DNA from: Gracilariopsis chorda
Taxonomy: Eukaryota; Rhodophyta; Florideophyceae; Gracilariales; Gracilariaceae
Length of the DNA: 64,000 nt
Reading direction: 5' to 3'
Assembly (NCBI GenBank): GCA_003194525.1
Contig: NBIV01000067.1
Span: forward strand, 124,001-188,000
In this document: positions 1-63,900 of the stretch, one piece after another
Numbering within the stretch: the stretch's first letter is position 1
Layout of the letters: every line of letters starts with the position of its first letter
Made by a program: the position numbers and the translations under genes
Notes under the pieces: generated by a model
What the model saw: the letters and a program-made list of their open reading frames with translations, nothing else
Databases searched by the model: none
Told to the model about the DNA's origin: nothing

Positions 1-1022
1 GTGATCTGGAATGTGTCTCTTTATAAGGTGTATTTATGTGTTGACCTTGCACTGCAATAACGAAGCTAGTTGTTTGCCAACACTGACGGCTAGCCCTTCC
101 AGTTTCTGTATATGTTCTCTATTTCTCCCCACTTTTGCAGGAGTTTGGTTAATGCCAAATAGTTTCCTCTGCACGAGATCAGGGTTCAGCAGTAACTAAA
201 GAAGAATGCTTTGTCTGGGTCGAGGTTTCTAGATATTCGTATTACAGAATACCAAAGATAAGGAAGCAAATCTCTTCGAATCTTTCCTGACACTCCGGCC
301 TGCCTTTCATTGCTTTGCATTCTAAAATCCGCAAACATATTGATGTGGCCCATTGGAGGAAAGCTCATTACTCATTTTTTTGCGATTGCAATCTTTGCTT
401 GTACTGTGATAGTCTTTATTACGGTCAATCACCTCAGACGCGCCGTCTCTGAAACTAAGATCTATACCATGTTCAAATACATGCAAGTTTTCGAATCCAT
501 CTGGCTTGAATAACCTGAGTAGTTAGTAAATCGCTCCTGCAAGAGCTCCAGAATAGATGGTAGTTCCTTTGCGGTTATTTTGGTTAACTACCATTTTCAC
601 TCTTACCAGTCGTCAAAGACACGTTTAGTTGAACATATCATCATGTCGTATACCTTCCTTTTCTTTCTATACCGGTGTCTGCCTGTAACTAGCTCCACCT
701 GGATCGTGGCATGTACATGCTGTCAGGCATTCTCCCCCCATCCGTTGCCCTACTTGGACAAGGCGGCGAAGGATGGACTCCCTATGAGATTCGATCTCAT
801 TTTAAGGGTCAACCACCTCTTGCCACTTCTGCCCCAGACGCCTTGCGTGGCTTCCATCCCAGGCACTTCTCGCTGCTGCGCAGCCCGGCGCCTCCAGCGT
901 AACAGCGGCCCCTGTTGCGTACGCAGTAGACGGCGCTACTACCCCAGATCAGCATACCACGCACGTTCCAGCTACAGTGCCGCCAGCCCCCGTGGCCACA
1001 GCCCTGTCGGCAGCAGCTCTGA

Positions 1023-11963: not shown

Positions 11964-12268
11964 GTTTTTATATACCGTTGTAGGCTTCCAAAAGAGTGTA
12001 CTTCTCTTTTGGGTAACAGTATGAATTGTAGCTATTCTATATCTACTACGCAACAACGGTGCTGGTGGGTTTCTGCAACCTACGCACCAGCACCACAAAT
12101 TCCAAGCACCTACGCACCAAGTAGGTATGCTATCAACAGTGTGCAATCCGTAATCAATCATGCCCCCCTGAGATGCCTGGGTCTAACAAGCATGGAGACA
12201 CGAGGATTTCCTGCCTTCGCCAGTAGCGAACCACTAGGTTCCATCGAAGATCCTTTGCATCCTAAAAA

Positions 12269-14067
12269 TTATCTTCCTCTGTGGTGAACACCAGCTAGCA
12301 TAGCTGATACTTGTGGTCCTCCGCTGTTCTTTTGGGTATGACCCACGATCTGATTTATGAAGTCTTCGCCACTTGACGTTTCCACTGCGGTTTTCGAAGC
12401 CTGAATGACCACACGGTCAATGTTATGGGGCTCTTGGAACCCGCTATTCTCAATGAGAGCAGTGCGGTTGCCCGTGTCAGTGCTCGGCATTTTAAACGAT
12501 CCCTCCATCTTCCTGCAGAGCTTTCATGAGATCGTTCAACGTCGTACCCCTGCTTGCTTTGGATCCAAGTGTTGGCGGAGGTTCAAATACGTGCTGGGCC
12601 CCAGCATTTCCCACTCTAGGACGCGTGCGTCGTACCCTCGCTTGTAGCGCCGCTGCGCTTTGCGCAAGATTCCTCTCGTCTGCAACATGAGTTGGCGCAG
12701 ATAGGCCAGGAACCGCATCTCGACTTCTTGAGGTTGTCGCCCCTTCAGTGACTCAAGACTTTGGAGAAGCAACGGTTCGGGAACCTGAGCGACCGCCAAC
12801 TTGAACGAGGAGTCCGTCGCGCTATCATGCACCTTGGTGTTGTACCCACAAATCAGCCCATCGATGTATAGGTCCCAACTGTGCTGATGATGAGCAACTT
12901 AGTGCCTCAAAAAATGCAATAGGGTTCTGTTGAACATTTCAACTTGACGGTTGGCCTTTGGATGATAAGTCGATGTAAAGATGTTCTTGGTGCCCAGATT
13001 CAGCACACACTCTGGAAGAAATTTGAAGCGAAGTTAACTCTGTTGTCCCGTATGAATGTAACGGGAGGCACATAGATAAACAGCCAATGGGTGCAGAACG
13101 CTCTTGCGACTGCAAATGCACTGGTTGACTGTAACGGGACGGTTTTCGTGAACTTGGAAGATCGTCCAGAGATCACTAATAGGGAGCGAATACCTTGATT
13201 TGTCTCTTGGAGTGGGGCAAATATATCGATGGCGACACTTTCCGATGGCACGATCGCTGGGAAGAGCTTCAAGCGTACGGCATTGCGTTTTAGTGAGATT
13301 GTCTCCCTTACACACGACTCGCAGTCGTTCACCAGTCGATATAAATCGGCGGCCATGCTTGCACAGTGAAACCTGTGACGTAACGTCGCGTACATCCTTC
13401 GTCCATCCGGATGACCGGCCAAGCGTGGGTAGTGATGCATATGCATCGCGTAGTCTCGCAGAGACCTAGGTAGGAGCACCTACTCTCTTCGTTCCAACTT
13501 GGATGGGCGCACTAGTCTTCCTTCTCCATCTTTGTAAAGTAAACCATTCGGGTCATTCAGAGATTTCTCCCACATCTCCACAAAGAACGGATCTGTAGCT
13601 TTCTCTGCAAGCAGTTTTTATTGTGACACGATTGTCACTTCGTGATCTTCGATGTCGAAGACAGCATGCGTCAGATGCGACACCGCAGACAACGATTTGT
13701 TGTCTTGATGAGCGTCTGGCTGGCATAGAAGGCAAGGGATCTCGTCCGACGGTTGAATGGTGGTCTCACCATCCGTTGGTATGCGCGATAGCGTCTCTGT
13801 GACCTGGTTCTCCAAACATTTCTTGTAGACGACTTCAAATTCGTACTGCGCGAGGCGTAGCCTCTACCTAGTCAATGGAGTATTGGCGTCAGAACCTGAC
13901 AAATCCAACAGCCATTTGAAGTCCTGGTGGTCAGAGATGACCGTGTAGCGCTTGCAATCCAAGTAGGGCTGAGGAATGGTCAAGTGCCACACAACTGAGA
14001 GAAATTCTCGCTCGCTCTTTTCTGGTCGTGTTCTCGATTTCCCTTCTCTCCTCTCTTTTACGGGCAC
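12269..14067 (-). pseudogene. pol: Ty3/gypsy-2 pol relic (RNase H to integrase C-terminus)
   Basis: Reading leftwards from 14067: RNase H end (EKSEREFLSVVWHL, then SDHQDFKWLLDLSG), then a connection with ALSRLP-like ETLSRIPTDGE (about 13800). Integrase zinc finger and core follow at 13479-13000 (HHYPRLAGHPDGRRMYATL, CESC, AIDIFAPL, FIRDNRVNFASNFFQSVC), and the C-terminal domain at 12832-12269 (YKRGYDARV, then HNIDRVVIQ). Each block aligns in order with the complete pol at 46.35-51.57 kb, so this is an older, frame-broken member of a related lineage. It is truncated at its 5' side where the LINE tail begins. Confidence 0.75.
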
Positions 14068-14127
14068 GCTAGTTTAATTCCTACCTAGCGCAGAGCGCTT
14101 CATATGAAAGTAGCGCTCTCTCACGAG

Positions 14128-15950
14128 CTAAACCAGCATTCTTTCAGGCCATTTCTTGATGATTTCTTGAACACTAAGTCCTTGTCTATCGCGCATATTC
14201 GGCAAACATAACCTTCTTAAAGAGTTTCGTAGAGGAAATCGCAGAACAAAGTGCTTTACATCATTTAGAACTCCTGGTATACATTGGCACACTAGCCGTC
14301 TTTTCAAAAAGTAAGGACCCAAAGGATGAAAACAAGGAGTGTAACCAACTGCCAGTTGCGCCTATGCGAAATGATGGTGGTCTTCTGTAGCATTTGTGAG
14401 ATACTCCTTAAAATCGATTCACCTCTTCTCTTGCTTGAAAGCCGCCTCTTCACGTCCGCATAATCGACAATTTTATTATTTGATGCTAACCGTTGGCCAA
14501 AACATCCACAATGTGGATAGCTGTGTCAAGTGAATCTGCTTTCTCAAAAGCACCAGCAAGTGCGTCTGCACTGTACAGCAGTGGAGTCTTCCAGGCAGAC
14601 TTTGCGTAACAGACTGGAACCGTGCTGTTACAATCAAGCTGTAGCAAGGGAGGGCGCAGCAGGAGGGAAAACAAAATGCACTTCTGGATTGAGTCAAAGA
14701 CTATACGGTCGCGCTCCCAAAGCAGTGTCCTGATTCCGAAACGAGGAAGATGCTGCTCAGAGCGACCACTGTACAGTTCTCGACGGCGTCCCAACTGTCG
14801 CTTCCAAATAAAACCAGTACTTCAGCTTGGTTCTGTATCGGTAAACCTAGAGCTTCTTTCGCAAGTGCATCGACAAGTTCATTTTGATAGAGGCCGCAGT
14901 GACTCGGTGCTCACAAAATATCGATAATGCAGCTCTCTCTGATCTTAATCAGACTTCGTGCAACTATTTGCATGATATAGCGTTGTTTGCGACCACAACC
15001 TTGTATAATTTCTATCACACTTTGCCAATCCGTGACCATCCGTATTCGGCCTCTCCAACCCTCTTCAAGATCCATTACATTCAGAAAATAAAATACTGCC
15101 AATGTTTCTGCAAAAACAAACATGTTCCAATGAGTGCTGAGACCTTTCCAAGTTACGGTTGGGTTGATCAATTCCACCAAATTGCATAAGCGCTTCCATC
15201 TACTTCCGAGACTTTGAATACCCTCCAATTGAGCATTTGTCGATCTGCATCCATTACTGTTCGCCCATTGCGAGTCACTACATAACCCATGATAAAATCT
15301 TATGGATAACATATCATCATTCTTGGTTTCCGGCAATGCTGTACTTCAAAGTACTGAAGTAAACGTTCTTCATATTTCACAGTTCCAGCATACCATTTTT
15401 CATCCCATTCTACGGCAGCCCGCATTGGCTTGTTTTCTTCTAGAGAGCTAGCCTTCCAGACTGAACCATCACTTCATATCTCACAGTCTGCATCTGTCAA
15501 TCTTATCATTGCTTGCATTGCTGCAAAGCGCTGGTGTTGTATGGAATTTTTTTTCTTGCATAGCGCGAAATGGATGTGCATTCTTTTTTTGTCTTGTAAT
15601 CCTGGCTCTTCTGGTGACGGTGCATGTTTCAACTGTATCACTCCACATTCCGTTAACAATTTTTCTGCAGACTTCTTCAAAGAAGATCTCGTTTTCCGGA
15701 TGCGTGTCAATGACTCTCGATTGACGGCGTATGCAACCGGAGATGGATTTTCTGGGGAGCATAGTTTTCCCTTTTCATAAAGCTTGGCTGCCTGGATTGA
15801 AGCGATGTCGTACATAGACGGTTGGCTCAACACACCCCTGAGCTTCTGCATTGGTGTCGCTTTTGAACACCCAGTTACTATTCTTGATGCTTTGTTTCTG
15901 GCTTGTTCTAGCTCTTGTACTGCACACGGCAAAGCATTTGGAATTACCAC
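14128..15950 (-). pseudogene. LINE C-terminal region with RNase H and Cys/His tail
   Basis: At 15950-15474: ELEQARNKASRIVTGCSKAT and a typical post-RT segment. At about 15090-14910: RMVTDWQSVIEIIQG, where TDWQSVI corresponds to the TDSxSAL Asp block of RNase H. Just beyond, a frame gives the VPSHCGLYQNELVD-type block near 14.87-14.91 kb, which is the last RNase H motif. The tail at 14322-14128 (RRLVCQCIPGVLNDVKHFVL) is the C-x-C...H motif found at LINE ORF2 ends. Several frame changes are present. Confidence 0.6.
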
Positions 15951-16022
15951 ACCTGCCGCATATCGAGCAATGGAATAAGCAAATCCTACGCTTCAGAGAT
16001 TCACGGTGGTCCAGTCAGCACC

Positions 16023-42351: not shown

Positions 42352-42518
42352 TTAAGGTATAGCTATTTGTAAGCTAGAGAGATTCTCGTAATGATCTTTT
42401 CTAACAGCCGCCGTAAGTTGCCCACATTTGGCAAGGACGTCTCCAAGTCTCTCAAGTGTCATTTTGTCCATTTTTAGAAAGCCCCATGAGAGGCGAGTAG
42501 ATTGGGTGGCGGGTTGAC

Positions 42519-43315
42519 TCAAGTGGAGTGAGCCGGGTTATCTGGGGACATTTTCTGAAAACGGTGATTCTTTTCCTCCGGTAAATCCGATAATCGACGA
42601 TCTGGATGCGGCAAAATCGCTGGACTCGATGGAGAATGAACCACGAGCCGGTTTTCTGAGTCCAGACTACCGTCGGAGGTATGCGTGGTATCAGGGGCGA
42701 GATGAGGGTGAGGAGATACCATAATACAGTCGCGTAAAACCCATTAGTTCTGTTCGTTAATGTACAGAACGACTGTGTCGTTGGCAGTAGGAACCATGCT
42801 ATAAGGCCCGTCCGACATTCGAGAAAGCTTAGGACGCGTTTCTAGTTCAGGATTATAATACTTCTTACCAGGGAAAAGAAATTCATTTGTGTTAACCAGC
42901 GGTAGCAGTTGACGGAGCTTGCCGTCGAAATTACGCTTTTACGCAAGTTAAGGTTTGTCCATAGCTTTCTTGGCACCCGGTAACATCTTCTCCAACCATT
43001 TTCTCCAGTTTTCCTTGTGTGACTGCTGTGAAGAATACGCCGACAAAGTTGGTTGAATCTCGATTGCCACCGGGGATGGGATTCGCGACAGCACCATCTC
43101 AAAAGGTGTAAGCGACGTAACCCGATGTATCTGGGTATTGTAGGCATATGTAACCGCATCGATGTACAGGTTTCAATCCTTAGTATGATCCGAAACATAG
43201 AATCGTAATGCGTTTAGCGTCTTGCGATTAAGTCGTTCCATTTTTCCATTACCGTGCGGGAGATATGTTGTGAAATACATATTTTGAACATCGAGAATAC
43301 GACAGACGTCTTGAA
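42519..43315 (-). pseudogene. pol: Ty3/gypsy-3 relic (integrase end and C-terminal tail)
   Basis: Reading leftwards from 43315, peptide parallels residues about 1050-1360 of the complete pol: GNGKMERLNRKTLNALRF (catalytic Glu block), NLYIDAVTYAYNTQIHRV, TPFEMVLSRIPSPVAIE, FDGKLRQLLPLVNTNEFLF, YYNPELETRPKLSRMSDGPY, then DTVVLYINEQ and a tail with LPHPDRRLSDLPEEK. It is cut off at 43315, exactly where the LTR of the large gypsy begins. Related to, but clearly diverged from, that element. Confidence 0.75.
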
Positions 43316-44123
43316 TGTGGTGCAATGCCCCAAAGGGGAAAAACACCGAAAGACGTCCGGGATCTTCCTCTCACGAGGTGAACCCAGTTGGGTAGAGCCC
43401 TCCCAGAGGTGTCACGGCGAAGCCGGTTTGTAAGACCAGGGACACCTGTCGCGACTCGCGCAGGGAGGTGAAGGCGAAGAATCGGTATCCGCGTGAGCGG
43501 GGTGTGATCCTCAGTAGAGGTATGTTTCCACGTAAGTGGGGGGGGGTGTGAGCGGATGCGCACACGAGGGCCGCGGATAGCGGGAGGTGCTACCCTAAAA
43601 AGGGGAAAGAGGAAGGACGAAGTGGGTCGCGAGAGCGACGAGTAGATACGGCAATGCCGGTGGACAGGACTCCCTATACAGGGCGAAACACCAATATGAT
43701 TGGAACAATTATACTCCCAAGGATGGGCTTCTTTAGATGTGCAAGGGGGGTGAACTTCCGTACACTACGGTGCTTCCCTCCAAGGAGGAGTTGAGAACAC
43801 GCGGAGGCGGTAAAGCTCAGAGCCAATTCCCCAGGTTGGGGTCCATTGTTGGGGAAGGTTTACTGGTGCGACGGCAGTGCGCCGTCGCACTAAGTACTAG
43901 CTTCCCAGAAATGGGTGTGAAAATAATAAATAATATTAACTAAAATACTCCACATTCCGTGGCAACATCCACTACTGTGGCCAACCGCCAATTGACCCAA
44001 AACCGTGTCCCACGTGTCCATACCCACCATTGTGGGGCGTAGTTCATATACACACTACACAACCGATAATATCGGGAAAGCGTTCAAGTACCCAGAATCC
44101 CTCCCTGAGGGCGTTGCACTTCA
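43316..44123 (-). repeat. 3' LTR of the large gypsy
   Basis: 808 bp, matching 54015-54839. In element orientation it starts TGAAGTGCAACGCC and ends GGGGCATTGCACCACA, so it has TG...CA ends. I place the outer edge at 43316 because TGTGG is shared by both LTRs and by the solo LTR ending at 61904. It contains a 10-bp-arm hairpin at 43866-43890 (GTGCGACGGC/GCCGTCGCAC). Confidence 0.9.
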
Positions 44124-44138
44124 TATCCCCCCCCTTAA
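44124..44138 (-). promoter_or_regulatory. Polypurine tract for plus-strand DNA priming
   Basis: On the minus strand CTTAAGGGGGGGGATA abuts the TG of the 3' LTR. An AAG followed by eight G is the purine run that resists RNase H and primes the second DNA strand in LTR retrotransposons. Its position fixes the LTR boundary at 44123/44124. Confidence 0.75.
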
Positions 44139-44180
44139 GACGGGAAAACGACCGCGGACGCGGAGGATTCCCAGACGAAA

Positions 44181-45966
44181 ATGGGTGATAAAAGCGCGTG
44201 CTTTGTCTCCGGTTCTCCGGTAAATCCTTCTGCACCAGAGTCATCAAGCACACAAACGACAACAACAGCCACCCTCCAAAAGGGAAAAATGAACGACGAC
44301 AACAATATCAACAACCACAGCCAACCGCCGAGACTTCTCGGGCGATACACCACCGGTTTCCGGTCAGTTCCCCTGCCTCAGGGCGATCGAAATCCGGTAC
44401 AACCGGGGAATATGGCTGCGGCAGCCGACCATCCCTTCGCACTACCACCTTCGGTGGTGTCCTCCGGAACCACTCCGGTGTCCAACTGGCCAACTTACAA
44501 CACCCTGGTGGGGCTCAACCCGATGAATCGGAATCACGCGTCGCGCCTGCGCCTTGCCCCGTGGTTTCCCCGGTCGCTGTCCTCAATGAGGGATTGGTCA
44601 CCGCTTGTGCGGATGGCTCAGACACCCTTCCGGTGGATCTGCCCAGAGCAGTCACCACATCGTGGGATTGGCGTCACCGGATTGTGATTCCGCGTCACCA
44701 CCTCCGAAGAAACTCGGGCGAGACCGTCACTGCGGCACAGACCGCGCTGACGCGCATGGCGTATCAACGGCAGAGCCGGGCTCCATTCGATGTACCGGTC
44801 CCACCGGAGTTTGGCTTCGACGTTAGCTACTTCCGCACTCGCGGGGAGATTGGGTACGGCGAGAACCGTTCCGCCTCGAGACCCTCGCTTGGAGGAATTT
44901 CCCCGCAGCGCGGCAAGAGGCCCTTTGCTGGGAGCGACCGATTATTCGGGCGGAGTTCAGGTACCTTCCCCGGCAATACCGGTCCAACTTTCTCCAAAAC
45001 TTCATCCGCTACGAGCGGCGTTGGCGATCCCGATTCGGGTATTCTATCCCGTATCAGAACGTGGAGATAGAGCGGATTGCGCCGCCTCACCGACTAGGTC
45101 GGTATGTGGCACTCCCCGAGTGGTGGCGCTTCCATGAAGCCTGCTGGGGGTGCTACATAGAACTCCCGCCGGTACTTACGTACCTCGGTTCGCTGCTCAT
45201 GCAGGATCCCCGGTCGGGGTTGTGGTCCGTAGTGGTTACGGAGTGGGCGGCCCGCAGTGCGGCTTATATCCTCAACGAGGCGTACGACCAGTATCGTCTC
45301 TGGTTCCTTCAACCGCGTGTGCGGGCAGCGATCCGAAACCTGGATCTTCGCATCCCCCTTGGGGGCCAGGCCAACAATGAAGAGGTCCTCCAATTACTTG
45401 GGTACATCGACAGCGTTAGCTGGAGTGAGGTCCCGCTGGAGCAAAGCGGTCGTCTGGATGGCGGTAGCGGTAACACCGGTGGTCCGGGACTCGGTAGAAA
45501 CACCGCCCTTGCGGGGGATTTTATCTACTTCGACCCCTGGGAGTTCCGGGAAATTTCCTCGGAGGAGGCGCGTGAGCTTCGCGATACGCCCCGGCATGTG
45601 CCGGAAGACCACCCGGTGGGGTACGTCGATTCCGACGACTACTACCGCGCATACGGCGGGGATGACCCAATGGTCGATAACGAACCGGAAGAACCCGGGG
45701 AGATGGACGTAGAGGAAACCGGCGCTAGCGCGGAAGCTTTCCCAGAGGGGGCATCTCCGGCCGAGCCGGCTGCTGACCCTTCGGCGGCAAGTGCCGGACC
45801 TTCTATCCCCAGCGGGGTGACGGCGAATGAAAACGAAATCATCGCACGTTTCCTCCGGGGTGCCGGTCTTAGCGCTGCCGAGGTATCGGGGGATGTCACC
45901 ACCATGGCGGACGCGTTGGCCTACCGCCTTGCTGGGGGTTACGCCCTGGACGATGGGGGTGAGTGA
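44181..45966 (+). CDS. Antisense accessory coding region of the large gypsy
   Basis: Lies between pol and the 3' LTR but on the strand opposite to gag-pol. Three consecutive protein-like segments join by two frame changes: 44181-44560 (MGDKSACFVSG..., Ser/Thr/Asn-rich), then about 44560-44860 (DLPRAVTTSWDWRHRIVIPR, PFDVPVPPEFGFDVSYFRTR), then 44827-45966. The last has LAWRNFPAARQEALCWERPI, YRSNFLQNFIRYERRWRFRF, RYVALPEWWRFHEACWGCYI, RLWFLQPRVRAAIRNLDLRI and an acidic Pro/Ala/Ser-rich tail. The total is about 590 codons. Trp/Arg-rich and well ordered, it is not recognised as Gag, Pol, Env or a known capsid or transactivator. Frame changes could be mutations, introns or frameshifting. Antisense extra genes are known in some plant gypsy elements. 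Confidence 0.6.
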
Positions 45967-46349
45967 AACCTCTGGTCCAGTTTCCTGGTATCTTCTTTCC
46001 CTGGCTATGCCAGTTAGTGTAGTGTAGTATTGTGGGGAGCTAGCTGCTCCCCTGAATAAACTTTCCCGTTTAGAACGGTGCTTCTCGGTTGAGTTCCCCG
46101 TCTTCGACGGACTTTGCCTTGTTATCCTTTCCTTTCGCTCTCCGCTCGCACGGCAACGTTACCCAACTTGGGCATTAACCAGCGTGGCTGGGGCTGCAGT
46201 TCCCGTTTGACGGTGGTATCGCAGGACCTGCGACCGCGGGAGGTGTTCAATTGGCTCCCACGTATCCCCACTGGGGTCGTACCCGTACCAGCGGACGCGG
46301 TATTGTAGAATACCATCCTGGTCCCAGGTGTGTCCGACAAGTCGGTCTA

Positions 46350-49300
46350 CTACGAACTCTCGTTCGTAGACCTGCCGGCCGTGCCGGGTGGTGGTTGTAC
46401 TCCCTTGTGAGGGTTGCCCACTGTGCGGTATGTTGCCCCCATCCGGGTTGTCGGCGATGTCTCCGGCGTTGCCGTGCGCTGTCCTAGTGGCCGCTGCTCA
46501 TGCGGGAAAATATCCCTCAAGAGGGTGTGTGGTGTCACGGTTTTCACCGGCAAGTCATTCCCCATTGGGGTGTCGTTGTTCCCGTCTCCACGGTAGGCCG
46601 GGCGAACCGCCAGTCGGCGGCGGACTTGGGCTCCGCCTTCGCGGTTGAGCTCACGAACCGCGAGTTTGCGGGAAGATGACCGCTCCTGCGGGATCGGCAT
46701 TTCCACAATCCCCTGGGGGGTCCCGTGCGACACGGTGATTGGGTGGCAAACCGCCTCCCTGCCAGGCGCACGAGCGCTCTGCACCATACGTTCCGGCGAC
46801 GCCGTGGTGTCCCCGGCTACTGACGGGTTGCCTGGGGCTAACTCCGGTACACCGGTATTTTGGTCAAAATTCCCCTTTGGGGGGTTCTGGGCAGGTGCCG
46901 ATGACACCCTTTTCAGGGGAATTGCCGCTGAGCGCAGTGCACCATCTCCGTGAGGAGGAGCAGCGTCCGGTACGACCGGTTTCGAGCGTGCGATGGCGCG
47001 CGTTATTCCCGAGTTCCTCGGTTCTTCGCCGCAGCGATGCGGGGGTTGGCGCAAATTATTCCCCGTAGCGGGGGCTTTGATTCCGTCAACGACGGGAGGC
47101 GTTTCCGGTGCTTGCGAGCCAGGGCTTAAAGCTTCGACTGCAGCTTGGCCGCCTTTTTCCCCAAGAGGGGTGTGGGTATTCCCCTGTGAGGCCGGCGTAT
47201 CTGGGCGCCCCTTCTCCGCAGGGCGCGGGTCTGATCGACCTGATTGAACCGCTTCCGCGGGGACTTCCGCCAACGGCGGCTTCGAGGCATCGGGCGATTG
47301 CCTTTCCGCTGCTGCGGTATTGGAGTGAGGCTTCTCGTTTTCCCGTGACAAACGGTGTATTTGCCGCTTTTGCGGGGCCTGCGCGTCTGGTTCCTGTTGC
47401 ACAGCACTGCCCGGGAACGGGGGATTAGTGTCGCGTGACATACTCCGTGCTCCACGGTCAGTGTTCCGTATGTTACGGTGTGTTTCCCGTTGCGACGGTG
47501 ATATCGTTCCTCGAAAACGAGTGTTCTCCTCCCCCTCCTTAGACGGAGCGGCGGGATAAGGGATAAAATTCCCCGCCTGGCGGGTATAGATGCGCGCCAG
47601 TGGGGCAGACGAGGTAGGGGCGGGCGCTGAGGGGCCCGAATTACCCGGCTGAGCCGGTGAGTCCGACAGAGTCGGTAAGTCTGAGAGTCCCCGGCTGGGA
47701 TGTGGTAGTACCGTAGGTCTAGTACTCCCGGATTGTTCCGGTGTAGCGGAGTCCGTAGAAACGGGGTTGCCTGGATCCAGGACTACCTCTGACGAGGGAG
47801 GAGGGGCAAGGACAACACGATCATGGGAAATCCGTTCGTGCGTGTCCCCCATCTCTACCACGACAGTGTCGGTGTTAACAGAGATCACCTTGAAGGGTCC
47901 ATCCGCCACAGGCGAGAGTTTGTGACGCTTCTCCCGTTCCGGGTTGTAGTATTCCTTCCTGATGAAGACGTAGTTATTTGCCCGAATCGGGGACGGTTTT
48001 CCTCGCACGCGAGCGTCAAAATCCTGCTTGTAAGCGGCTTGGGCCCGTGCCATAGACTTCCGCGCAGCGGGGACCAGCTTGGAAAGCCATTGCTTCCATT
48101 GCTGCCGGTAGATACCCACAGATGGGAAATTGTCCAAGGTAGCTTGGGGTTCCAGCGCCACAGGCGGGGGTGTTCTACATAGAACTAACTCGAATGGCGA
48201 AACTCCGGTAGTCCGGTGTACCTGCGTATTGTACGCGTAGGTTACCGCATCAGCGTAGAGATCCCAATTCGTTGGGTGGTCAGCGACGTAGGAACGTAAC
48301 GCCGCGAGTAACGTCCGGTTAAACCGTTCAACTTGCCCATTACACTGGGGGTGGTAGGTAGTCGTGAACAAGTTCTTGACATCCAGGATGCGACAAACAT
48401 CCTGGAAGAACTTGCTCACGAACTGCTTCCCGTTGTCAGAGAGCACCTCTACAGGGGGACCGTAGACAAAAATCCAGTGCGTCACCAGAGCCTGGGCCAC
48501 CGTGAGAGCGGTTATCCTCCGAAGAGGGACAGTCCGTACCAGCTTAGAAAAGCGGTCGGTAATGACAAGTACAAACTTGTTTCCACGTTTCGTGGTGAGT
48601 AATGGTCCGAGAATATCGATCGCAATAAACTCGAGCGGCGCCCTTGCGGGGAATAGTTTCATCTTCTTCGCATTTTTGCGGAGTTTGACGCGATTCTTCG
48701 CGCATTCGCTACAAAACCGCACAGTTGCGTAGCAATCCACCGCCATTGCGGGCCAATAGAAATCCCTTCGCAGGGTTAGGTAGAGTTTCCTCCCACCTGG
48801 GTGACCTCCAATGGGGGCGTAGTGTGATAGATGTAACACCCGCGATTGCAGGGAATGTGGTACCACAATCTGTGGGTGGGCTTCGACCTTTCTTACGAGG
48901 TAGCCTTTGTCGTTTACCCCGAAAGGGAGATCTTCACCACCGTTGATACGGGCACGAATTCTCGTACAGAATGGGTCGCCGAATTGTTCTCGGATCATTT
49001 CTTCCGGTGATACCGGTACAAAGTTTCCCGGTAACGGGTTCTCAGATTTATCTCGCGATGCGAGTAGTTCGTCAAAATCAGCATCCTCGTCCCAGGTTTC
49101 TGGCCTAGCCTCGACGGCATATTCCGGATCATCCGGGTCTATAGCCATGAAGCATGGGACTTCATCATCCTCCGTTGGGAGTGCTTCTCCACTTGTGGGT
49201 AACCGCGATAAAGCGTCGGCCTGGGTGTTCTGCGCACCCTTTTTATAAATGACTTGAAAGTCATATTCCGCGAGGCGGAGTCTCCAGCGCATGAGGCGTC

Positions 49301-51572
49301 CCGACGGGTCGGAGATATTCATCAACCACCTCAATGAGGAATGATCCGTGTGCACGGTGAAGTGAATTCCCATAAGGTAGGGGCGCAGAGTGGTCATCGC
49401 CCATACGACGGCGAGGCACTCTTTCTCCGATACGGAGTAGTTCCGCTCATGAACATTGAGCGAACGTGACCAATAACCAATTGGATGTCGTTCCCCCTCG
49501 GGGGTGGTTTGAAAAAGAGCACACCCGACTTGGTAGTCGCTCGAGTCCGTATCTACGGAGTATGGCAACCCAAGTTTTGGGAGATGTAGGATTGGTGCTG
49601 ATGTGACAGCCTCCTTTAAGGAGTTAAAGGCTTCCGATTGCTCGGGCGTAAATATTCCCAGTTTTGGGGGGTTCCCCTTTCGCAACAACGCGTTCAGGGG
49701 CGCTGCAGTATCCGAAAAGTTCGGGATAAACCGTCGATAGACGTTGACCAGCCCCAGAAAGGAGCGCAGTTCCGTTTGAGTACGGGGTTCTTTCGCCTCA
49801 ACGAGGGATTTGACTCGAGTTTTCTCGATCGCTAACCGTCCAGGACGGATAATGTGACCCAGATACTTCACAGTATCTGTGAAAAACTCGCATTTCCTCA
49901 ACTTGAGGGTAATTCCCGCATCGCGGAGTACGGTGAGCACGTCTCGGACGTGAGTGAGATGGTCGTCCAACGAGTTGGAGAAGATGATGATATCATCAAG
50001 GTAGACCAGACAACTCCGCCACTTAAAGCGGTTGAGTAGAATATCTACTGCACGCTGAAAGGTGGCGGGGGCGTTGGTTAACCCAAATGGCATCTGCTTG
50101 AAGCGGTACGTTCCTGCATGGCAGGTGAATGTGGTTTTGTCGCGATCCTCCTGTCTGACAGGTACTTGCCAATATCCCCAATTGGCATCAAGGGCCGTGA
50201 ACACGGTGGCGTCTCCAAGGGAGTCAATGCACTCGTCCATACGAGGGATAGGGTACGTGTCCCTAACAGTCACGGCATTGAGCCGGCGGTAGTCGACACA
50301 GAACCTCCAGGTTCCGTCGGCCTTTAAAGCCAGTACAACTGGGGATGCCCAGGGTGATTGAGCGGGCTCAATCACACCTGCGCGGAGCATCTTGTCCACC
50401 TGGGACTGCTCCTCTTCCCGAGCTTTCAGACCTGCCCTGTAAGGGGGTTGTGCAACCGATCGCGCACCGGGGATTAAATCGATCCGGTGTTCCGTTGCAT
50501 CAATCTCGCCAAGCGAGCCATCCCACATTGTGGTGAATTCCCGTAACATAGTACGGAGTTTGTCGCGGTGCGACTCTGGCACGTGGCTGAAGTCCAGCGC
50601 TTCAAGTGCTTTTTCCGGATCAATCCGGTCATTGCTCGATGGAGCATTGTCCTGTGGAACAGGTGTGGTTCGCAATTCCGAGTTACTCGGTATGTTCGGC
50701 GCTGAAGTAGCGGTTTCATCCCCCTCCTTAGACTTGACGTCTTCGGACGGCGGGGCGAACTCCTCAGAAGAGGTGGTAACTCCGAGTACATCGGCGGCTG
50801 TCATCTTTGTTGGCAGCATTCCCATAGGATGGGGGGTTACACTCCCAATTGATTGGTGTTTGACCAGATACTGGGGGTGTTTGCCAAGGTTGGCAACCAA
50901 TATCCGGAAAGGGACATCCGGGGAAATGGAGACAATTCCATTAGCCAGCGCCAGCTGGGATTTCTCGTACAACGAGGCGAGGGGTTGTATAACCCGAAGA
51001 CCGTGTTGACGGGAATTTACCTGCACCCAGACTTGGGACTCAGCCGGTATAGAAACCGAGGCAGCGACGCGGAGCTTGGTGGACTCGCGGGACGCGGGCG
51101 GTGGTTCCTGCGCAGCAGGGAGCGGAACTTGTTTCCGAGAGGACCGCTTTAGCGGGCGGCGAAAAATCGGAACCGACGATCCGTCTTCAAGTTCTACACG
51201 CCTGAGGCGGGGCCTGATTGCGTCGACAAATCTGTCGCAGTAATCACATCCCAGTATGACTGGTGCTGCCAATGAACGGCAAACGATGAAGTCCAACTTC
51301 ACCACAGAGGTACCAAGTCTCACGACGAGGTCCACTGTGCCCACCGTTTGCAACGGATTGTTGTTCGCATCCGAAATGTCGGGGACCGCGTCAGAGCGGA
51401 TACGCGACCGCACAAGCGGGGGTAACCATGATTCCACAACAAAGTTGGGGCCTGCACCTGTATCCAGGACGGTGAGAAACTTCACCATAAACTGGGGGTC
51501 AAGGACAAGGTCGGCATAGACCTTATAATTGCGCTTGGCCAAGACCAAGACTCTATCAGAATCCGGGGATTT
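46350..51572 (-). CDS. pol: Pol polyprotein of the large gypsy: protease, RT, RNase H, integrase, long tail
   Basis: Uninterrupted frame. Residue numbers here count from the TTG at 51548. Protease DTGAG is at 29-33. The RT core covers about 390-560 (AGVIEPAQSPWASP, FCVDYRRLNAVT, QMPFGLTNAPATFQ, YLDD 516-519). RNase H has acids near 668 and 735 and Glu in SEKE at 707-710. The integrase zinc finger is H909/H916/C946/C949 and the catalytic core D978, D1038, E1074 (D,D-35-E). A GPF-type C-terminal segment ends near 1330. About 400 further residues are Pro/Ser/Arg-rich and probably disordered. The frame opens at 51572 without an ATG; the first ATG is at 51488, eight codons before the protease DTG. 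Gag ends 163 bp upstream in another frame, so expression is not explained by a simple overlap. Confidence 0.92.
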   Translation of the reverse strand, partial: KSPDSDRVLVLAKRNYKVYADLVLDPQFMVKFLTVLDTGAGPNFVVESWLPPLVRSRIRSDAVPDISDANNNPLQTVGTVDLVVRLGTSVVKLDFIVCRSLAAPVILGCDYCDRFVDAIRPRLRRVELEDGSSVPIFRRPLKRSSRKQVPLPAAQEPPPASRESTKLRVAASVSIPAESQVWVQVNSRQHGLRVIQPLASLYEKSQLALANGIVSISPDVPFRILVANLGKHPQYLVKHQSIGSVTPHPMGMLPTKMTAADVLGVTTSSEEFAPPSEDVKSKEGDETATSAPNIPSNSELRTTPVPQDNAPSSNDRIDPEKALEALDFSHVPESHRDKLRTMLREFTTMWDGSLGEIDATEHRIDLIPGARSVAQPPYRAGLKAREEEQSQVDKMLRAGVIEPAQSPWASPVVLALKADGTWRFCVDYRRLNAVTVRDTYPIPRMDECIDSLGDATVFTALDANWGYWQVPVRQEDRDKTTFTCHAGTYRFKQMPFGLTNAPATFQRAVDILLNRFKWRSCLVYLDDIIIFSNSLDDHLTHVRDVLTVLRDAGITLKLRKCEFFTDTVKYLGHIIRPGRLAIEKTRVKSLVEAKEPRTQTELRSFLGLVNVYRRFIPNFSDTAAPLNALLRKGNPPKLGIFTPEQSEAFNSLKEAVTSAPILHLPKLGLPYSVDTDSSDYQVGCALFQTTPEGERHPIGYWSRSLNVHERNYSVSEKECLAVVWAMTTLRPYLMGIHFTVHTDHSSLRWLMNISDPSGRLMRWRLRLAEYDFQVIYKKGAQNTQADALSRLPTSGEALPTEDDEVPCFMAIDPDDPEYAVEARPETWDEDADFDELLASRDKSENPLPGNFVPVSPEEMIREQFGDPFCTRIRARINGGEDLPFGVNDKGYLVRKVEAHPQIVVPHSLQSRVLHLSHYAPIGGHPGGRKLYLTLRRDFYWPAMAVDCYATVRFCSECAKNRVKLRKNAKKMKLFPARAPLEFIAIDILGPLLTTKRGNKFVLVITDRFSKLVRTVPLRRITALTVAQALVTHWIFVYGPPVEVLSDNGKQFVSKFFQDVCRILDVKNLFTTTYHPQCNGQVERFNRTLLAALRSYVADHPTNWDLYADAVTYAYNTQVHRTTGVSPFELVLCRTPPPVALEPQATLDNFPSVGIYRQQWKQWLSKLVPAARKSMARAQAAYKQDFDARVRGKPSPIRANNYVFIRKEYYNPEREKRHKLSPVADGPFKVISVNTDTVVVEMGDTHERISHDRVVLAPPPSSEVVLDPGNPVSTDSATPEQSGSTRPTVLPHPSRGLSDLPTLSDSPAQPGNSGPSAPAPTSSAPLARIYTRQAGNFIPYPAAPSKEGEENTRFRGTISPSQRETHRNIRNTDRGARSMSRDTNPPFPGSAVQQEPDAQAPQKRQIHRLSRENEKPHSNTAAAERQSPDASKPPLAEVPAEAVQSGRSDPRPAEKGRPDTPASQGNTHTPLGEKGGQAAVEALSPGSQAPETPPVVDGIKAPATGNNLRQPPHRCGEEPRNSGITRAIARSKPVVPDAAPPHGDGALRSAAIPLKRVSSAPAQNPPKGNFDQNTGVPELAPGNPSVAGDTTASPERMVQSARAPGREAVCHPITVSHGTPQGIVEMPIPQERSSSRKLAVRELNREGGAQVRRRLAVRPAYRGDGNNDTPMGNDLPVKTVTPHTLLRDIFPHEQRPLGQRTATPETSPTTRMGATYRTVGNPHKGVQPPPGTAGRSTNESS

Positions 51573-51735
51573 TTACTCCGTATCCACGGGCGACGCAACA
51601 CACCGAGGTGCGCAGAGTCCGCGTCAGCGGTGTCTTTCCTCGAGAGGACTTTCACCGGGGAGCGAGGCGAGGACGCCTCGGGCGCCAACAGCCTCGTTCT
51701 TGAGGACGCCTCTCCCAAAGGGGAGACTCCCTCAG

Positions 51736-53910
51736 TTAGTTTTCCGCCTTCGGCGGTGGGTTGGTTTCCTCGACAACGAGTGCTTCATCCCGTTGACGGG
51801 GGTTTCTATCCGCATAAGCGGGGGTTGCAACGGATGGTTGCGTGATCTCCCGAATCGGGGTGTATGAAGCTTGCCGCGCACGCGGGGTCTGTGGTAGGGC
51901 GTGGGAAAAGTCCGTTTTAGCACGGAGGTAGGAAGCCGTCGGGACGGAACGTTTCTCCTCTGGAGTGAGGGCCTCATAATTTGCCACTACCTTGGCCATA
52001 TCCTTCAGTGAACAAATACACTGAGGTGAGGTATGGCCATGGGTATAGCACAGGTGGCATATGAGAGCCAGCACCGCGACATGCGGATTATTATTCCGAG
52101 TATCGGAGAAGCGAACCGCAGGGCGGGTGTCAGTCCATCCAGGCCGTTGATAACGGGATTGACCGTTTGAAAACGGGAGTCGTTGGGGTTGAACCCGACT
52201 GTTACCACCGTATAGAACGGGATCTTCTGTTCCCGTATCATGGGTCATCTCCGTCGTTGACGGTAACTCACTGGTGGGTATCGACACACCATCCCCCTGC
52301 GCTAAATGCACGGTATCAAATCCCTGTCCAGGGTTCCCATCCGCGGTGAGCGGGAGAGAGGAAGCTTCGCTTTCCCGCAACAACGCCTTGGCGGATTTAG
52401 ACCGATTGTTCGGAGTTCTTGCACGAAGTGCATCTCCTTCCGCTCGAGCGTGTTGGACCAGCTCGAGGTAGGTGATCCTTCGCTTGTCCTCCCGATAACG
52501 GGTAACTAAACTCCGGATTGCCGGGTCAAGACCATCAATGAACATGGTACTGCGCTCCCCAGCGGGGTATACGTTACCACATCTGTGGAAAGCCTTGTTA
52601 AGGCGCACCGAGTAATCGGTCTCGGTCTCTCCAGCACGCTGGCGTGTATCTCGCAAAGCGAGGATAGCCTGCTGAATAGCGGTGTTGGTGGCGTAGGAGC
52701 GCAGAAGATACTGCACAGCCTCCGGCCAGCAAGTAACTCCTCCCTCGGAGGCGCGAGAAGATGCTCTGACAGAGGTGTATTGGTCCTCCGCCACTCCCCG
52801 TAAGAAATGCTGTAAAGCCAAATAGGCTTGTCCCTCATTCATACCGAGGATATCGGCCTCCGCTACAAAGCGGGATGGGAAATCCAGTACTAGGACTGGG
52901 TCCTCTCCAGTAAAATACTGGTTGCGGAGCGAGAGCTGCATTCGCTTAATGCATTCTCGCACCTTTCCCGTACCACGGGGCGTACGTCCAAGTGACGAAT
53001 CTTCAAGCCGGTAGTACCGGTATGATAAAAGCTTCCGGTAATCCGGGTTTGTCGGTTTCAATTCCCGGAGACCAGGGTGTCTTCTCCCCTTCTGGCGGGT
53101 TCGGACCATACCTTCAGTGGCCAATGACCGCTTCCAGCGGGAAGAGTAGCCTCGCTTCTCGTCCTCCGAGTTGGAGTCCGAGGAGCTCGAGCTAACCGAA
53201 TGGTTTCGGGATGAGTCCGACGATGTCGAAGAATCGGAGTCCGAATATTTTCGGTGGTGTTTCCGTCGGTGACGGCGTTTCTTCTTCCCAGCAAGCTGGT
53301 CGTTGTGCGATGCCTCGTTTACCGGATCACCCGGGGATGGTTTGTCCATGAGGACGAACTGCTCCAGCGTCTCCAGGCGGGCACCAATCCGATCAAATCG
53401 GGCTTCAACTCCTTCGATGAAGGCGGCGGGTTGTCCCAAACTCTCCAACACGGAGTTGACGTCAGACCGTAAAATACGGAGTTCCTCGGCGACCTCCTTT
53501 ACGGGGGTTGCCGAGACCACCTCTTGGAGGGATTTTAGTTCCCCTACAAGGGTGTCATGGGCGGTTCACAGAGCGCGGACCTGGGATTCCAGGGAAGTCC
53601 CCTGGGGGGTGTTATCGCCCGTTCCACGGGGGCTTGAAGCCGCGACAGCGGGAGCAGGCCGGGGTGCCTGCGGCACTGCGGCAACAGCCGGAGTCGATGC
53701 TGCATTCCCCTGCAGGGGTGATAACGAGGGCAAAAGGAGGTTCCGGGGTTCCCGGTCGGGGGTATCATTCCGCGATGAAGCGGCGCCAGCACGGCTGGAA
53801 CTTGTCCGTATAGGGATACGGGGTACGAACCGAACTTCGGAAGTGTCCGCGTTGTCGCGGGAGTGACTACGCGTAACCACTGGCTCCGCGTCGGAGGGAT
53901 TTCTCGACAT
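51736..53910 (-). pseudogene. gag: Gag of the large gypsy, one premature stop
   Basis: ATG at 53910 opens a frame of about 724 codons whose only break is TGA at 53568-53566. One transition from CGA (Arg) would explain it. The N-terminal 115 residues are Pro/Ala/Ser-rich. After the stop come a coiled segment (EVAEELRILRSDVNSVLESL), a Lys/Arg and Ser/Asp stretch (KKKRRHRRKHHRKYSDSDSS), and a capsid core with YFTGEDPVLVLDFPSRFV, YLALQHFLRGVAEDQY and ETDYSVRLNKAF. A CCHC zinc knuckle CHLCYTHGHTSPQC (Cx2Cx4Hx4C) lies near the C-terminus. Gag would form the particle. Downstream initiation after the stop remains possible. Confidence 0.85.
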
Positions 53911-53998
53911 GAGAAAATACCGTTACGACGCGAAACGATCACGGAACTTCCGGTGAGTGAAAACAAACCTCGTAAGAGGGAAAACAAAACCGATTCTA

Positions 53999-54011
53999 GG
54001 TCGGGAGACCA
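53999..54011 (-). promoter_or_regulatory. Candidate tRNA primer-binding site
   Basis: In element orientation TGGTCTCCCGACC begins 3 nt inside the LTR edge at 54015 and starts with the TGG expected of a site complementary to a tRNA CCA end. The primer tRNA would end GGTCGGGAGACCA; I cannot name it. Confidence 0.4.
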
Positions 54012-54014
54012 CTT

Positions 54015-54839
54015 TGTGGTGCAATGCCCCAAAGGGGAAAAACACCGAAAGACGTCCGGGATCTTCCTCTCACGAGGTGAACCCAGTTGGGTAGAGCCCT
54101 CCCAGAGGTGTCACGGCGAAGCCGGTTTGTAAGACCAGGGACACCTGTCGCGACTCGCGCAGGGAGGTGAAGGCGAAGAATCGGTATCCGCGTGAGCGGG
54201 GTGTGATCCTCAGTAGAGGTATGTTTCCACGTAAGTGGGGGGTGTGAGCAGATGCGCACACGAGAGCCGCGGATAGCGGGAGGTGCTACCCTAAAAAGGG
54301 GAAAAAGGAAGGGCGAAGAGGAGGAAGAGAGGGCGAAGTGAGTCGCGAGAGCGACGAACAAATACGGCGATGCCGGTAACAATAACCCTATACAGGGCGA
54401 AACACCAAGACACTTGGAACAATTAGTACTCCCAATGATGGGTCTTCTTTAGATGTGCAAGGGGGGTGAACTTCCGTACACTACGGTGCTTCCCTCCAAG
54501 GAGTAGTCGAGAACACGCGGAGGCGGTAAAGCTCAGAGCCAATTCCCCAGGTTGGGGTCCCTTGTTGGGAAAGGTTTACTGGTGCGACGGCAGTGCGCCG
54601 TCGCACTAAGTACTAGCTTCCCAGAAATGGGTGTGAAAATAATAAATAATATTAACTAAAATACTCCACATTTCGTGGCAACATCCACTACTGTGGCCAA
54701 CCGCCAATTGACCCAAAGCCGTGTCCCACGTGTCCATATCCACCATAGTGGGGCGTAATTCATATACACACTACACAACCGATAATATCGGGAAAGCGTT
54801 CAAGTACCCAGAATCCCTGCCTGAGGGCGTTGCACTTCA
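54015..54839 (-). repeat. 5' LTR of the large gypsy
   Basis: 825 bp. Compared with the 3' LTR it has an extra purine-rich stretch near 54310-54330, three fewer G in the run near 54238, and scattered substitutions. It carries the same 10-bp-arm hairpin at 54582-54606. It would hold the element promoter, but I see no clear TATA box. Confidence 0.9.
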
Positions 54840-60923: not shown

Positions 60924-63900
60924 TCAGCTTCTGAACTTCATTATACCGTGACACTCTTCAATGTGTTTCACAAAACAATCTCTATTAGTACCAGTGTGAC
61001 ATAAACACAGTTCTTTTTCTTTTCTGATATAGCACCCGGAACATGAAAACTTGGACTTTGTATTACCTTTGCAGAAATTGCTGAAGTGCAACCGCTTGCG
61101 ATGGCACTTGATCGCCGTTTCGGGTATTCCGGGTTGTTGCTCATTTATGAGTAGAGGGTATACTTGTGCCGACGGATCGGATCGTGCACGTGGCAACAGC
61201 TTGGCCGGATGCGCCGTAACAACGGAATCTGCGCGTGTTACACGGGTACACCACAGTAGTGGATAGCGGGCTAGATACAACTTATTCATTTATTTAGCTA
61301 TTACACTGGGTCGTCTACTGTACTTAGTGCAGCGGCGGCCGCCGCTGCACCTCAGTAAACTTCCCCAACAAGGGTGTTCTACTCCAAGAACTTGGCTCTG
61401 AGTGCTCTCCCCTTCGGCGGTACTAAACTCCATTGCGGAGAGGTATCCCGTTGAACACGGCTCGCTCAACCCCCTTGCTCGCCTAAGACAGCCCGTAGTT
61501 GGGATACTATTACCCACTGTTGTGGTTTTCGCCCGTGTATACCGTTTATCCGGCCTTGCCACTTCGCGCCCGAGTCCCTCTCGTGACTCGCACCCCTACT
61601 CCATTCTCTCCCCTTTTCCCTTTCCTTTTCCTTTCCTTTTCCCCTTTTTGGGCAGCTCCCACTGTCGTGGCTCCTACCGACTTACCGTCGTGTGTGCGCC
61701 ACCTTGTGCACATCTCCCTCCTTTGGAGCGATACCGAAAACCGGCTTCTAATTACCTTCCTACGCTTGTCGCGAAGGGTGACCCCGATTTACAACCGGCT
61801 TCGCCGTGTCATCCCTGGAAGGGCTCTTACACTGGGTTCACCTCGTGAGAGGAAGATCCCGAACATCTTCGGAGTGTTTTCCCGCTTGCGGGCATTGCAC
61901 TACAATTGCATCATCCTTGATACAAGGCTTTTGTAATCTTGCCATCCTTGTTTTTTCTCCTTCCATTCGTCTGCATCAAATGCAAGCCAGTGCCTGCAAA
62001 CATTGGCTTCTCATGAACATATTCACATTCTTGCTCATCTCTACTCATTAGACCTGTGGTATCCCATGTTTTCTGAGTTAGTTCATCAGCCAATTGGAAA
62101 TAGAAGTGATGCGGACTCTTCACTTTTCTGGTTCCATTTGTGGCTCTGTACAAATTCCACGCGTCCACAATACAAATCAATAAAAGAGAGCAATTCACTC
62201 GAAATGACCACTCTTTCACTTCAATTTTCTTCTCCAGATTCAGACCATCTTGTCTGCATCTGTTATGGCGCTCGACCATTGAACAGTTCTTGTAGTACTC
62301 TTCACACACTTCAGGAATTGCGACCTCCAATTCCACTTTCTTAGAAATATTTCCCTTCCGTCTCCACCTTTCTCGAATAATAGGAGAACCAGGATTAACC
62401 GTGCCAGAGGTTGATACGAAATACCTTCTTTCTCTGTCCATCCACATTATAGCCATTATATCATTATTGATAATGCTTCCTTTTGGTAGCATAGATACAA
62501 AATCTCCCCTGTCCGATAGAGTAGTTTCGGAGAGATGTGTCATAGGATATTCACGAGTAGCATTTTTGACAACTCCAGTAGACCTTAAACATTTGTCCAG
62601 TAATGCTTTCGCGGTACTGACAGACGCAAAAAAGGAATCTGCACATACCAACCTTTCTGATCCAAATCATGGTTGCACTAAGCGAAGTAAGACTGCCGTT
62701 CCATGGGCGTTATCAGAATCAAAAACTTGTTCCGGAATATTTGCACCCATATTGAGCTCAATGTTCATCATTATGCCACTTCGTGCATAACATACGGCCT
62801 TCATTTCAAGATTTTCCGGCTTTCTATCTAATGCCGTACAGTGTGGGAGCCCGACATCAATCTAATTACCGCCTAATCCGTACCATCGTGAAATTCCTTC
62901 TTCAACACATAAGGCATGTGATGGTGTGACAAAAGACCGACAATGGTCATTGATTGCCTTCAAAAAATCTGCTACGAAGGGCCAACGTGCGACTCCCTGC
63001 TCTTCAGTCACACCATTTCTGCTGAACCATATTGAACTTCTAAGCATTTCAAATCTGTTCCTTGACATCACAAGACCAATATTTGGCTGAGGAATAAACT
63101 TAGAAAAAGGCTCGAGGCTCTAAAGATCCCGTCTGTTAGAGCACTCAATCCGAGTCATGAGGATAATAATTCCAAGGAATTTGAGCAGTTCTCCCCCTGA
63201 AGTCCTCCGAATGTCTTTGCTTTCTAGTCGAACATTCGTTCTGTTCACTATAATCTGCAAATGCTGCATAGGGAACATCCAAAGGAAAAAATCTAATGCG
63301 CTCATGTTTGGAAGAACGTGAAGAGGTGAGATAAAATCTCCGACTGGGCCAACCACTTTCCACTGATGCATTTGCATACAACCATTCAGAGAACCCAACG
63401 TCGTACATGTTTCCCACACACGACCATGAATCACAGTTGATTGGACTGGTGCATTTTTGCTTAATAAAATTGTGAGGCTGCAAAACTTGCATCTGAGATG
63501 GTGTGACAAGAGCATCTTCCTCGATATTTTGCATCTTAATGGGTTAAAACTTGGTAATATATTCTTTTGATTCACTGCCTCGTCAACACTGGTACCTATT
63601 GTGCAACTGGATAGAGGTAGAGCTACTTCTTTTTCTCGGTTGGGTAGACTAAACTTCACAGTCAGAAAAGTGAGATTTTGATTGTTTACCTTCCTAATGT
63701 CAACATTGAGGACAGAACCTTGTACCGTTTTTAACTTCCATAGAGATCCATAGTAACGTTTACATTTAGCGTCATTTGTAACCAGACAAGCACGGCTGTT
63801 GACAGTTGTTCCAACAGTTGTGCGAAGATCTGTGGACGGGGCCATTGTATACGAATGTTGTTGACGATAGTGCTTGATGTGACAGCTACGACTGTTGGTG

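Follow-up and report, generated by a model that had tools for sequence, protein, structure and literature searches.

Why should a mobile element be filled from end to end with short perfect inverted repeats, and what keeps them there? The question is raised by a 64,000-nucleotide stretch (the window) of contig NBIV01000067.1 from the red alga Gracilariopsis chorda (assembly GCA_003194525.1; 91.3 Mb), in which positions 43316–54839 are one copy of a long terminal repeat (LTR) retrotransposon with its sense on the minus strand. An earlier reading of the letters (the original prediction) had held that micro-hairpins occur throughout these 11.5 kb, in LTRs, genes and antisense gene alike, and had proposed selection for structured RNA, template-switch copying or both as their cause. 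The hairpin excess is confirmed here and traced for the most part to one strict motif, a stem that begins with CC and ends with GG, whose maintenance by purifying selection is supported by variation among copies; the array may represent a dispersed recognition code read by a protein of the element itself.

Hairpins were counted as perfect inverted repeats whose arms span 4 bases or more and whose loop is no longer than 6, and compared with 60 block-wise dinucleotide shuffles, mostly in 250-base blocks in which local composition is kept. The element holds 600 such hairpins against 281.4±16.7 in the shuffles, 237 against 72.3±7.4 when arms of at least 5 are required, and 57 against 19.0±4.3 for arms of at least 6; counted without redundancy (any type, arms ≥4) they number 428 against 216, or one per 27 nt, and they cover 53% of the bases against 24%. 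Synonymous-codon shuffles, which keep protein and codon usage, give 136±11 hairpins for the 262 observed in pol (arms ≥4) and, for the CC-hairpins defined below, 20.7±5.1 for 113 in pol, 5.4±2.2 for 39 in gag and 5.2±2.2 for 18 in the antisense open reading frame (ORF). Hairpin density is thus above that of shuffles preserving dinucleotides and codons, the comparison on which the original prediction had staked its claim, and an artefact of composition or codon usage is ruled out. A codon-phase effect is likewise rejected, the first C of the pol CC-hairpins falling in every codon phase (32, 39, and 42). All of the example hairpins that had been named are present at, or no more than 2 bases from, the places given for them, including the one at 50354.

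The excess ends at the borders of the element, where 1-kb steps pass from 1.8–2.4 times expectation inside to 0.9–1.2 times in the adjoining kilobases. For all hairpins, the left flank (43.3 kb) has 1084 against 1042±29 and the right flank (9.2 kb) 245 against 210±13, and the greatest 4-kb block excess outside the element is 1.41 times, at 12001–16000. The expectation that flanking relics would be far poorer in hairpins therefore holds in most places; it fails for a relic at 12.4–14.0 kb (66 hairpins vs. 36±6) and, when arms must reach 5, for eight 1-kb blocks outside the element that attain twice expectation, as do 12 of the 12 blocks within the element.

The hairpins are not of a random type: CC-first stems hold most of the excess. 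The greater part of it is a single motif, 5′-CCNN-(3..6 nt)-N′N′GG-3′ (the strict motif, or CC-hairpin), which occurs 239 times with one LTR counted (24±6 expected), against 27 for the mirror GG..CC (23 expected). Over the element, strict hairpins number 260 CC-first (24.7 expected) and 27 GG-first (24.4 expected); a maximal 5′ arm starts with CC 260 times against 36 and with GG 39 times against 35. The inner pairs are Watson–Crick: in an anchored test that required CC..GG, a span of 11–14 and one formed inner pair, the other inner pair was Watson–Crick in 260 cases (24.5 expected), G-U in 11 (~10 expected) and A-C in 13–20 (12 expected), and stems with one internal G-U stand at 57 against 58 expected, perfect 5-bp stems at 185 against 50. 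The pair just outside the stem (−1,+1) is Watson–Crick less often than by chance, in 23 of 260 hairpins against 59.5 expected from the margins, and the same avoidance is found in the relatives L069 (6/81 vs. 18.6), L072 (10/123 vs. 27.9) and L020 (8/78 vs. 19.2), L-numbers being genome loci fetched for comparison; at this position the window's own element favors A-A, T-T, and C-C mismatches, G-G not being among them.

Loop size and spacing are constrained as well. The predicted loop range of 0–6 is upheld for loops of 3 and 4, which lead at arms of at least 4 (145 and 140 vs. 37 each), and not for loops of 0, which show no excess; at arms of at least 5 a loop of 3 is the most enriched (79 vs. 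10), followed by 1, 2, and 4, and loops of 7 and 8 are barely enriched. Centre-to-centre spacing peaks at 16–23 nt in the window's element, L069, L070, L020, and L072, and climbs again, less strongly, around 40 nt. Stability alone is ruled out as the rule: below −3 kcal/mol there are 210 CC-first hairpins (20.9 expected) and 124 of other types (54.7 expected), and GG-first hairpins of like energy stand at 0.78 times expectation (17 vs. 21.8). Because G-U counts as no pair and stability alone is not kept, the Watson–Crick-only rule is either DNA-like, or a sign that both strands matter, or the mark of a protein that checks Watson–Crick geometry. Since the inner positions need complementarity of any identity, which a dimeric double-strand reader could hardly demand, the rule implies an array that would fold as a single strand.

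The strict motif is enriched in every part of the element tested, LTRs, genes and antisense gene included, as had been claimed (Table 1); the leader has 13 against 1.6 expected, and the pol-to-LTR part with the antisense gene 50 against 6.3. The left flank has 29 against 27 and the right flank 14 against 5.2, and 12 of the 14 right-flank motifs fall at 61.17–61.93 kb, in a diverged LTR-like stretch of which only the end can be aligned to the LTR (81% over ~155 bases). The CC code picked out this stretch and is kept in it where similarity is mostly lost. The hairpin-rich interval of the left flank contains a decayed Ty3 relic (12386–14016, minus strand) that is related to the hairpin clade (integrase ~47% amino acid identity); its next matches after itself lie at ~47%, hairpin-family members among them, with none closer in the best 150 places scored. 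The CC rule is absent from this relic. Anchors at 12.0–14.6 kb number 3 against 1.6 expected for CC, 12 against 3.9 for TG, 11 against 3.5 for GA and 7 against 2.5 for GT, and 27 of the 40 stems at 11.9–14.6 kb start with G or T (p = 0.04).

For comparison across the genome, 30 of the 110 listed reverse transcriptase (RT) places, 30 of the 150 listed RNase H places, and 8 + 20 LTRs were fetched. Each of the 30 pol loci from the element's own family, one of them the window's, has 1.97–2.32 times the expected hairpins, so that the check proposed on other family members returns an excess in all 29 that were examined. The 29 loci of other Ty3 families, whose RT is 38–48% identical where aligned and many of which are copies of one family, all stand at 0.84–1.31 times expectation, i.e., without excess. 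The thirtieth RNase H locus, L067 (RT 82%), reaches 1.58 times, its relatives L069 and L070 reach 1.3–2.2 times per kilobase, and L069 follows the strict rule (81 vs. 10.6). The CC array is shared by two or more related families in this genome.

Whether selection or mutation maintains the array can be judged from variants among copies. For the LTR, 29 copies were aligned and 26 of 30 counted (the window's own LTR, L001, was removed, and L090, L091, and L092 were left out); for pol, 26 of 30 copies were counted (L014, L015, L017, and L018 were dropped). Shared variants, those in at least 2 copies, were scored once per column and allele, and p-values are approximate because the copies are related. 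Private LTR variants strike stems (41/278) and linkers (66/439) alike; shared LTR variants are found at 12/278 in stems and 54/439 in linkers (Fisher p = 0.005; p = 0.0002 with another reference copy). The ratio of shared to private variants is 5:51 in the CC stems of pol against 98:250 elsewhere (p = 0.0015), and 10:68 against 169:353 when CC stems of LTR and pol are pooled (p = 0.0003). Because shared variants avoid CC stems and private mutations strike stems and linkers alike, selection rather than mutation is indicated, and the comparison of copies supports an array kept by purifying selection that would act through the transposition cycle. Turnover is probably slow: with G-U not accepted, a stem would have no tolerated intermediate.

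Comparisons over longer distances show what is retained. Between subtypes, in the C-terminal, antisense-gene and LTR part, 27 of 926 bases differ in the stems of the window element's CC-hairpins, 49 of 330 in their loops and 243 of 3194 elsewhere. Strict hairpins of this element are retained in 106 of 113 cases in L072 (0.67 of control positions unchanged) and in 63 of 73 in L020 (control 0.62). Over the whole of pol, the window's element retains 19 of the 48 hairpins of L069 (control 0.03), and L069 retains 19 of 95 in the reverse direction (0.05); over conserved pol the figures are 17 of 29 (0.05) and 17 of 62 (0.075). Compensated alleles were seen; one hairpin of the LTR, for instance, occurs both as CCAAG/CTTGG and as CCAAT/ATTGG, and in pol CCAAG/CTTGG alternates with CCAAC/GTTGG. 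The LTR hairpin at 43691–43703 takes, among 29 copies, the forms CCAAGacaCTTGG (14), CCAATatgATTGG (11), CCAATgcaATTGG (2), and CCAATacaATTGG (1), all fully paired; one further copy is without the outermost pair.

The reading that we favor, while giving it somewhat less than an even chance, is that the array is a dispersed cis-acting recognition code on single-stranded nucleic acid of the element, with Gag as its likeliest reader. The array would act on a single-stranded form, genomic RNA and/or cDNA, and the element's own Gag/nucleocapsid would bind many hairpins and in this way pick out, condense, and package the element's genome. Recognition would rest on the stem (its CC/GG base, Watson–Crick geometry, and fixed length) rather than on the loop, because the loops of CC-hairpins change faster than the stems, and both the polarity and the length cap suggest that the reader's binding site has a definite shape. 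Because the code is restricted, as far as tested, to one lineage, the reader would be encoded by the element, Gag being the natural candidate and the antisense protein the second.

A number of results weigh against this reading. Selection is not significant in two narrower tests, that of synonymous pol variants only (8:28 vs. 45:92; p = 0.31) and that of the LTR CC-only subset with one reference (p = 0.11). Compensation is rare: among 77 hairpins of the window's element altered in L069, 1 still meets the motif (companion count 1/30), and pair-level covariation between the two elements equals the control (0.366 vs. 0.372). The loops of CC-hairpins change faster than linkers in three of four comparisons, the fourth (pol from L020) giving 20/232 against 315/3141, and in the C-terminal, antisense-gene and LTR part non-CC loops are not faster than linkers. 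Shared stem variants show no preference for G-U over A-C (7:6 in pol, 3:5 in the LTR), and this balance, together with the exclusion of G-U, does not point to the genomic RNA strand; hairpin flanks are A-rich (genomic sense) in gag-pol, and not in the antisense gene or the LTRs; strand assignment by G-U/A-C balance and by flank composition gave no consistent sign. In the antisense-gene region neither strand folds better than background (−0.74±0.43 kcal/mol per 60 nt for the genomic strand, −0.93±0.47 for the other). Finally, the Gag model (pLDDT 43.8; 1 sequence) is too poor to seek an RNA-binding surface, and both it and the model of the antisense protein (pLDDT 35.0; 2 sequences) were judged too poor for a fold search.

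A doubtful but serious alternative is that the hairpins keep the strands apart: transcripts of either sense, or the two strands of the cDNA, would fold locally rather than into long duplexes, which would feed RNA silencing or stall replication, and a requirement that both strands fold would admit Watson–Crick pairs only. That G-U and A-C are both at chance is expected if both strands matter. The antisense gene, moreover, exists in at least 79 genome copies scored at 89–100% amino acid identity, and in 65 of these 79 best-scored copies it is stop-free over the matched stretch; it lies where plant Ty3 elements such as Grande, RIRE2, and Retand carry an antisense ORF, between pol and the 3′ LTR, a likeness of position and orientation, and antisense transcription with double-stranded RNA silencing is discussed for those elements in the text of PMC7264820, the main text of which does not contain the terms hairpin or secondary structure. 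Strand separation would leave unexplained why GG-first hairpins of equal energy range are at no enrichment and why extension of the stem is avoided.

It is also conceivable, if rather speculative, that the array is an identity code, in which each lineage writes its own hairpin password throughout its sequence and its own protein reads self against non-self nucleic acid; the password here would be C-first stems, Watson–Crick only, capped in length and placed about every 20 nt. This idea gains support because the sister relic at 12.4–14.0 kb shows a hairpin excess without CC stems, and because the LTR-like stretch at ~61.2–61.9 kb keeps the CC code with its similarity mostly lost.

The array could, third, be an ordinary case of genome-scale ordered structure of genomic RNA, selected for general stability or compactness. 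In RNA viruses, genome-scale ordered RNA structure (GORS) is internal pairing, genome-wide, above composition-preserving controls, with G-U pairs accepted. The element resembles it in that pairing exceeds such controls along its whole length. In favor of this cause, the genomic strand of gag-pol folds locally more than its shuffles do, at −1.93±0.27 kcal/mol per 60 nt where background regions give −0.21 and −0.74, the enriched hairpins lie mostly at −3 to −6 kcal/mol, and gag-pol hairpins have A-rich flanks. It differs from GORS in its short units of single polarity, its disuse of G-U, its length cap, and its spacing of ~20 nt. The opposite strand of gag-pol is structured too (−1.27±0.32 kcal/mol per 60 nt), folding in the antisense-gene region does not exceed background, and stable tetraloops are few, with 4 GNRA and 1 UNCG among 57 on the gag-pol sense strand and 3 and 2 on the opposite strand (raw counts without a null). 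Plain one-strand RNA folding fits poorly as an explanation, and we consider general RNA structure an unlikely cause. The original proposal of selection for structured RNA thus survives as to selection, in that shared and fixed variants avoid stems, and only in part as to structure, since stability alone is not kept and G-U forms no pair. Among the open-licence papers listed for GORS, none is by its title on such a retrotransposon.

Two further explanations fare worse. A host factor, whether one of export, translation, or replication or a nuclease to be avoided, might read the hairpins in place of Gag, the element-encoded status of the reader being itself conjectural; the absence of the excess from 29 of 29 other Ty3 loci of the same genome and from most of the window makes this quite improbable. 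Template switching by reverse transcriptase or during DNA replication, which would make or repair palindromes by copying one arm onto the other, and which agrees with the strictly Watson–Crick arms, with one case, spotted by eye, of a loop exactly inverted from one subtype to the other (CCCTtcgcAGGG / CCCTgcgaAGGG) and with the proposal, made for other hairpins that are likewise perfect and short in the account of PMC8794818, that it creates and maintains them, is highly unlikely as the maker, because in our expectation it predicts neither CC-first polarity, nor a fixed span, nor below-chance pairing outside the stem, and because private mutations strike stems at about the linker rate, shared variants behave otherwise, and double changes that pair are much less frequent than single losses. 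Some multi-base differences between copies were seen by eye, a raw observation without a null.

For recognition by Gag, the closest working analogy, with membership unproven, may be the dispersed packaging signals of single-stranded RNA viruses such as MS2 and, for its pregenomic RNA, hepatitis B virus, which PMC6281560 presents as many short, degenerate stem-loops dispersed over the genome and sharing a recognition feature. The array has these properties, and its common feature is conserved. In MS2, by the same account, that feature is an apical loop and a bulged A (PMC6281560), whereas in the element the loops of CC-hairpins vary most and the base of the stem is fixed; unlike the viral cases, the carrier here is an LTR retrotransposon whose array spans LTRs and an antisense gene. 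Judged by titles and the starts of abstracts, none of the open-licence papers listed describes such a hairpin array, and among those listed for red algal retroelements none is by title on that subject.

If the favored reading is true, a retrotransposon can bear a second, structural message over all of its sequence, in the genes of both strands as well as in the non-coding LTRs, under a rule strict enough to single out a diverged relative. The element would then let one ask, for an LTR retrotransposon, how a particle under assembly chooses its own genome, with a motif simple enough for synthetic oligonucleotides. The array is also a warning that hairpin-based signs of RNA folding can mask rules other than RNA thermodynamics.

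The features of the element and its surroundings are collected in Table 1. The pol frame contains, in order, RVT_1, RT_RNaseH, Integrase_H2C2, and rve, all above the Pfam cut-off, and its long C-terminal part is without a Pfam match. Further traits of Ty3/gypsy elements, read by eye, are the TG..CA ends of the paired LTRs, the polypurine tract, and the candidate primer-binding site. The gag-like frame, which has no Pfam match above the cut-off, is a candidate gag from its place before pol and from one CX2CX4HX4C zinc-knuckle-like stretch found by eye. The window's two frames of the antisense gene are also without a Pfam match, and the gene recurs in L069 (47% amino acid identity over 180 amino acids).

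Table 1. Features of the retrotransposon and its relatives in the window (coordinates of the window; expected values in parentheses).
Feature	Position	Strand	Strict CC-hairpins (expected)	Basis or remark
Whole element, strict CC-hairpin array (5′-CCNN-3..6-N′N′GG-3′)	43316..54839		~1/45 nt	motif counts
3′ LTR	43316..44123	-	23 (1.6)	
LTR hairpin, several paired forms among copies	43691..43703			aligned LTR copies
Polypurine tract, CTTAAGGGGGGGGATA in sense, directly internal to 3′ LTR	44124..44139	-		by eye
Antisense accessory gene, in the interval from pol to the 3′ LTR	44181..45966	+		broken across frames in the window copy
pol frame, 1732 aa: RT, RNase H, zinc-binding and core integrase domains	46350..51548	-	108 (10.4)	Pfam
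Hairpin with 10-bp arms within conserved RT block, GTGATTGAGC/GG/GCTCAATCAC	50354..50375			sequence
gag-like frame, 594 aa	51736..53520	-	41 (3.3)	
Candidate primer-binding site, TGGTCTCCCGAC in sense, 3 bases internal to 5′ LTR end	54000..54011	-		by eye
5′ LTR	54015..54839	-	20 (1.3)	subtype unlike 3′ LTR
Diverged LTR-like stretch, opposite orientation, outside the element	61169..61927	+	12	partial LTR alignment

Aligned with each other, the LTRs of this copy agree at 773 of 803 bases and are separated by 27 gap columns, and the copy is flanked by CTTGAA and GAAAG, in which a clean 5-bp target-site duplication is not seen; because the LTR subtypes differ and a clean duplication is lacking, the copy may be recombinant. 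Genome searches returned at least 41 LTR matches at 95–100% and at least 110 RT matches at 96–100%, the window's own included in each; as only the best candidates are scored, these copy counts are lower bounds and biased to good copies. Two scans for relatives in viral contigs gave no confirmed match. Among host markers, light-harvesting proteins gave matches and a phycobilisome domain one weak match, from which the host would be a photosynthetic eukaryote, probably a red alga; elicitin gave no match in a search that returned no control either, and actin compared with solved structures did not narrow the host. Own-family pol copies (L009–L038) fall into two subtypes, which share ~79% identity over the integrase part and are almost the same over the RT part, so that copies look like mosaics. 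Some LTR pairs on C15, C222, and C288 are ~9.0–9.3 kb apart, against 10.7 kb, and are perhaps copies without much of the antisense gene. At L071 (4298–7001) an own-family copy adjoins a Ty3 family of 43% identity, and the hairpin excess starts with the own-family copy. A further relic in the left flank of the window, at 42501–42998, encodes a 32% match to the part of pol downstream of the integrase core.

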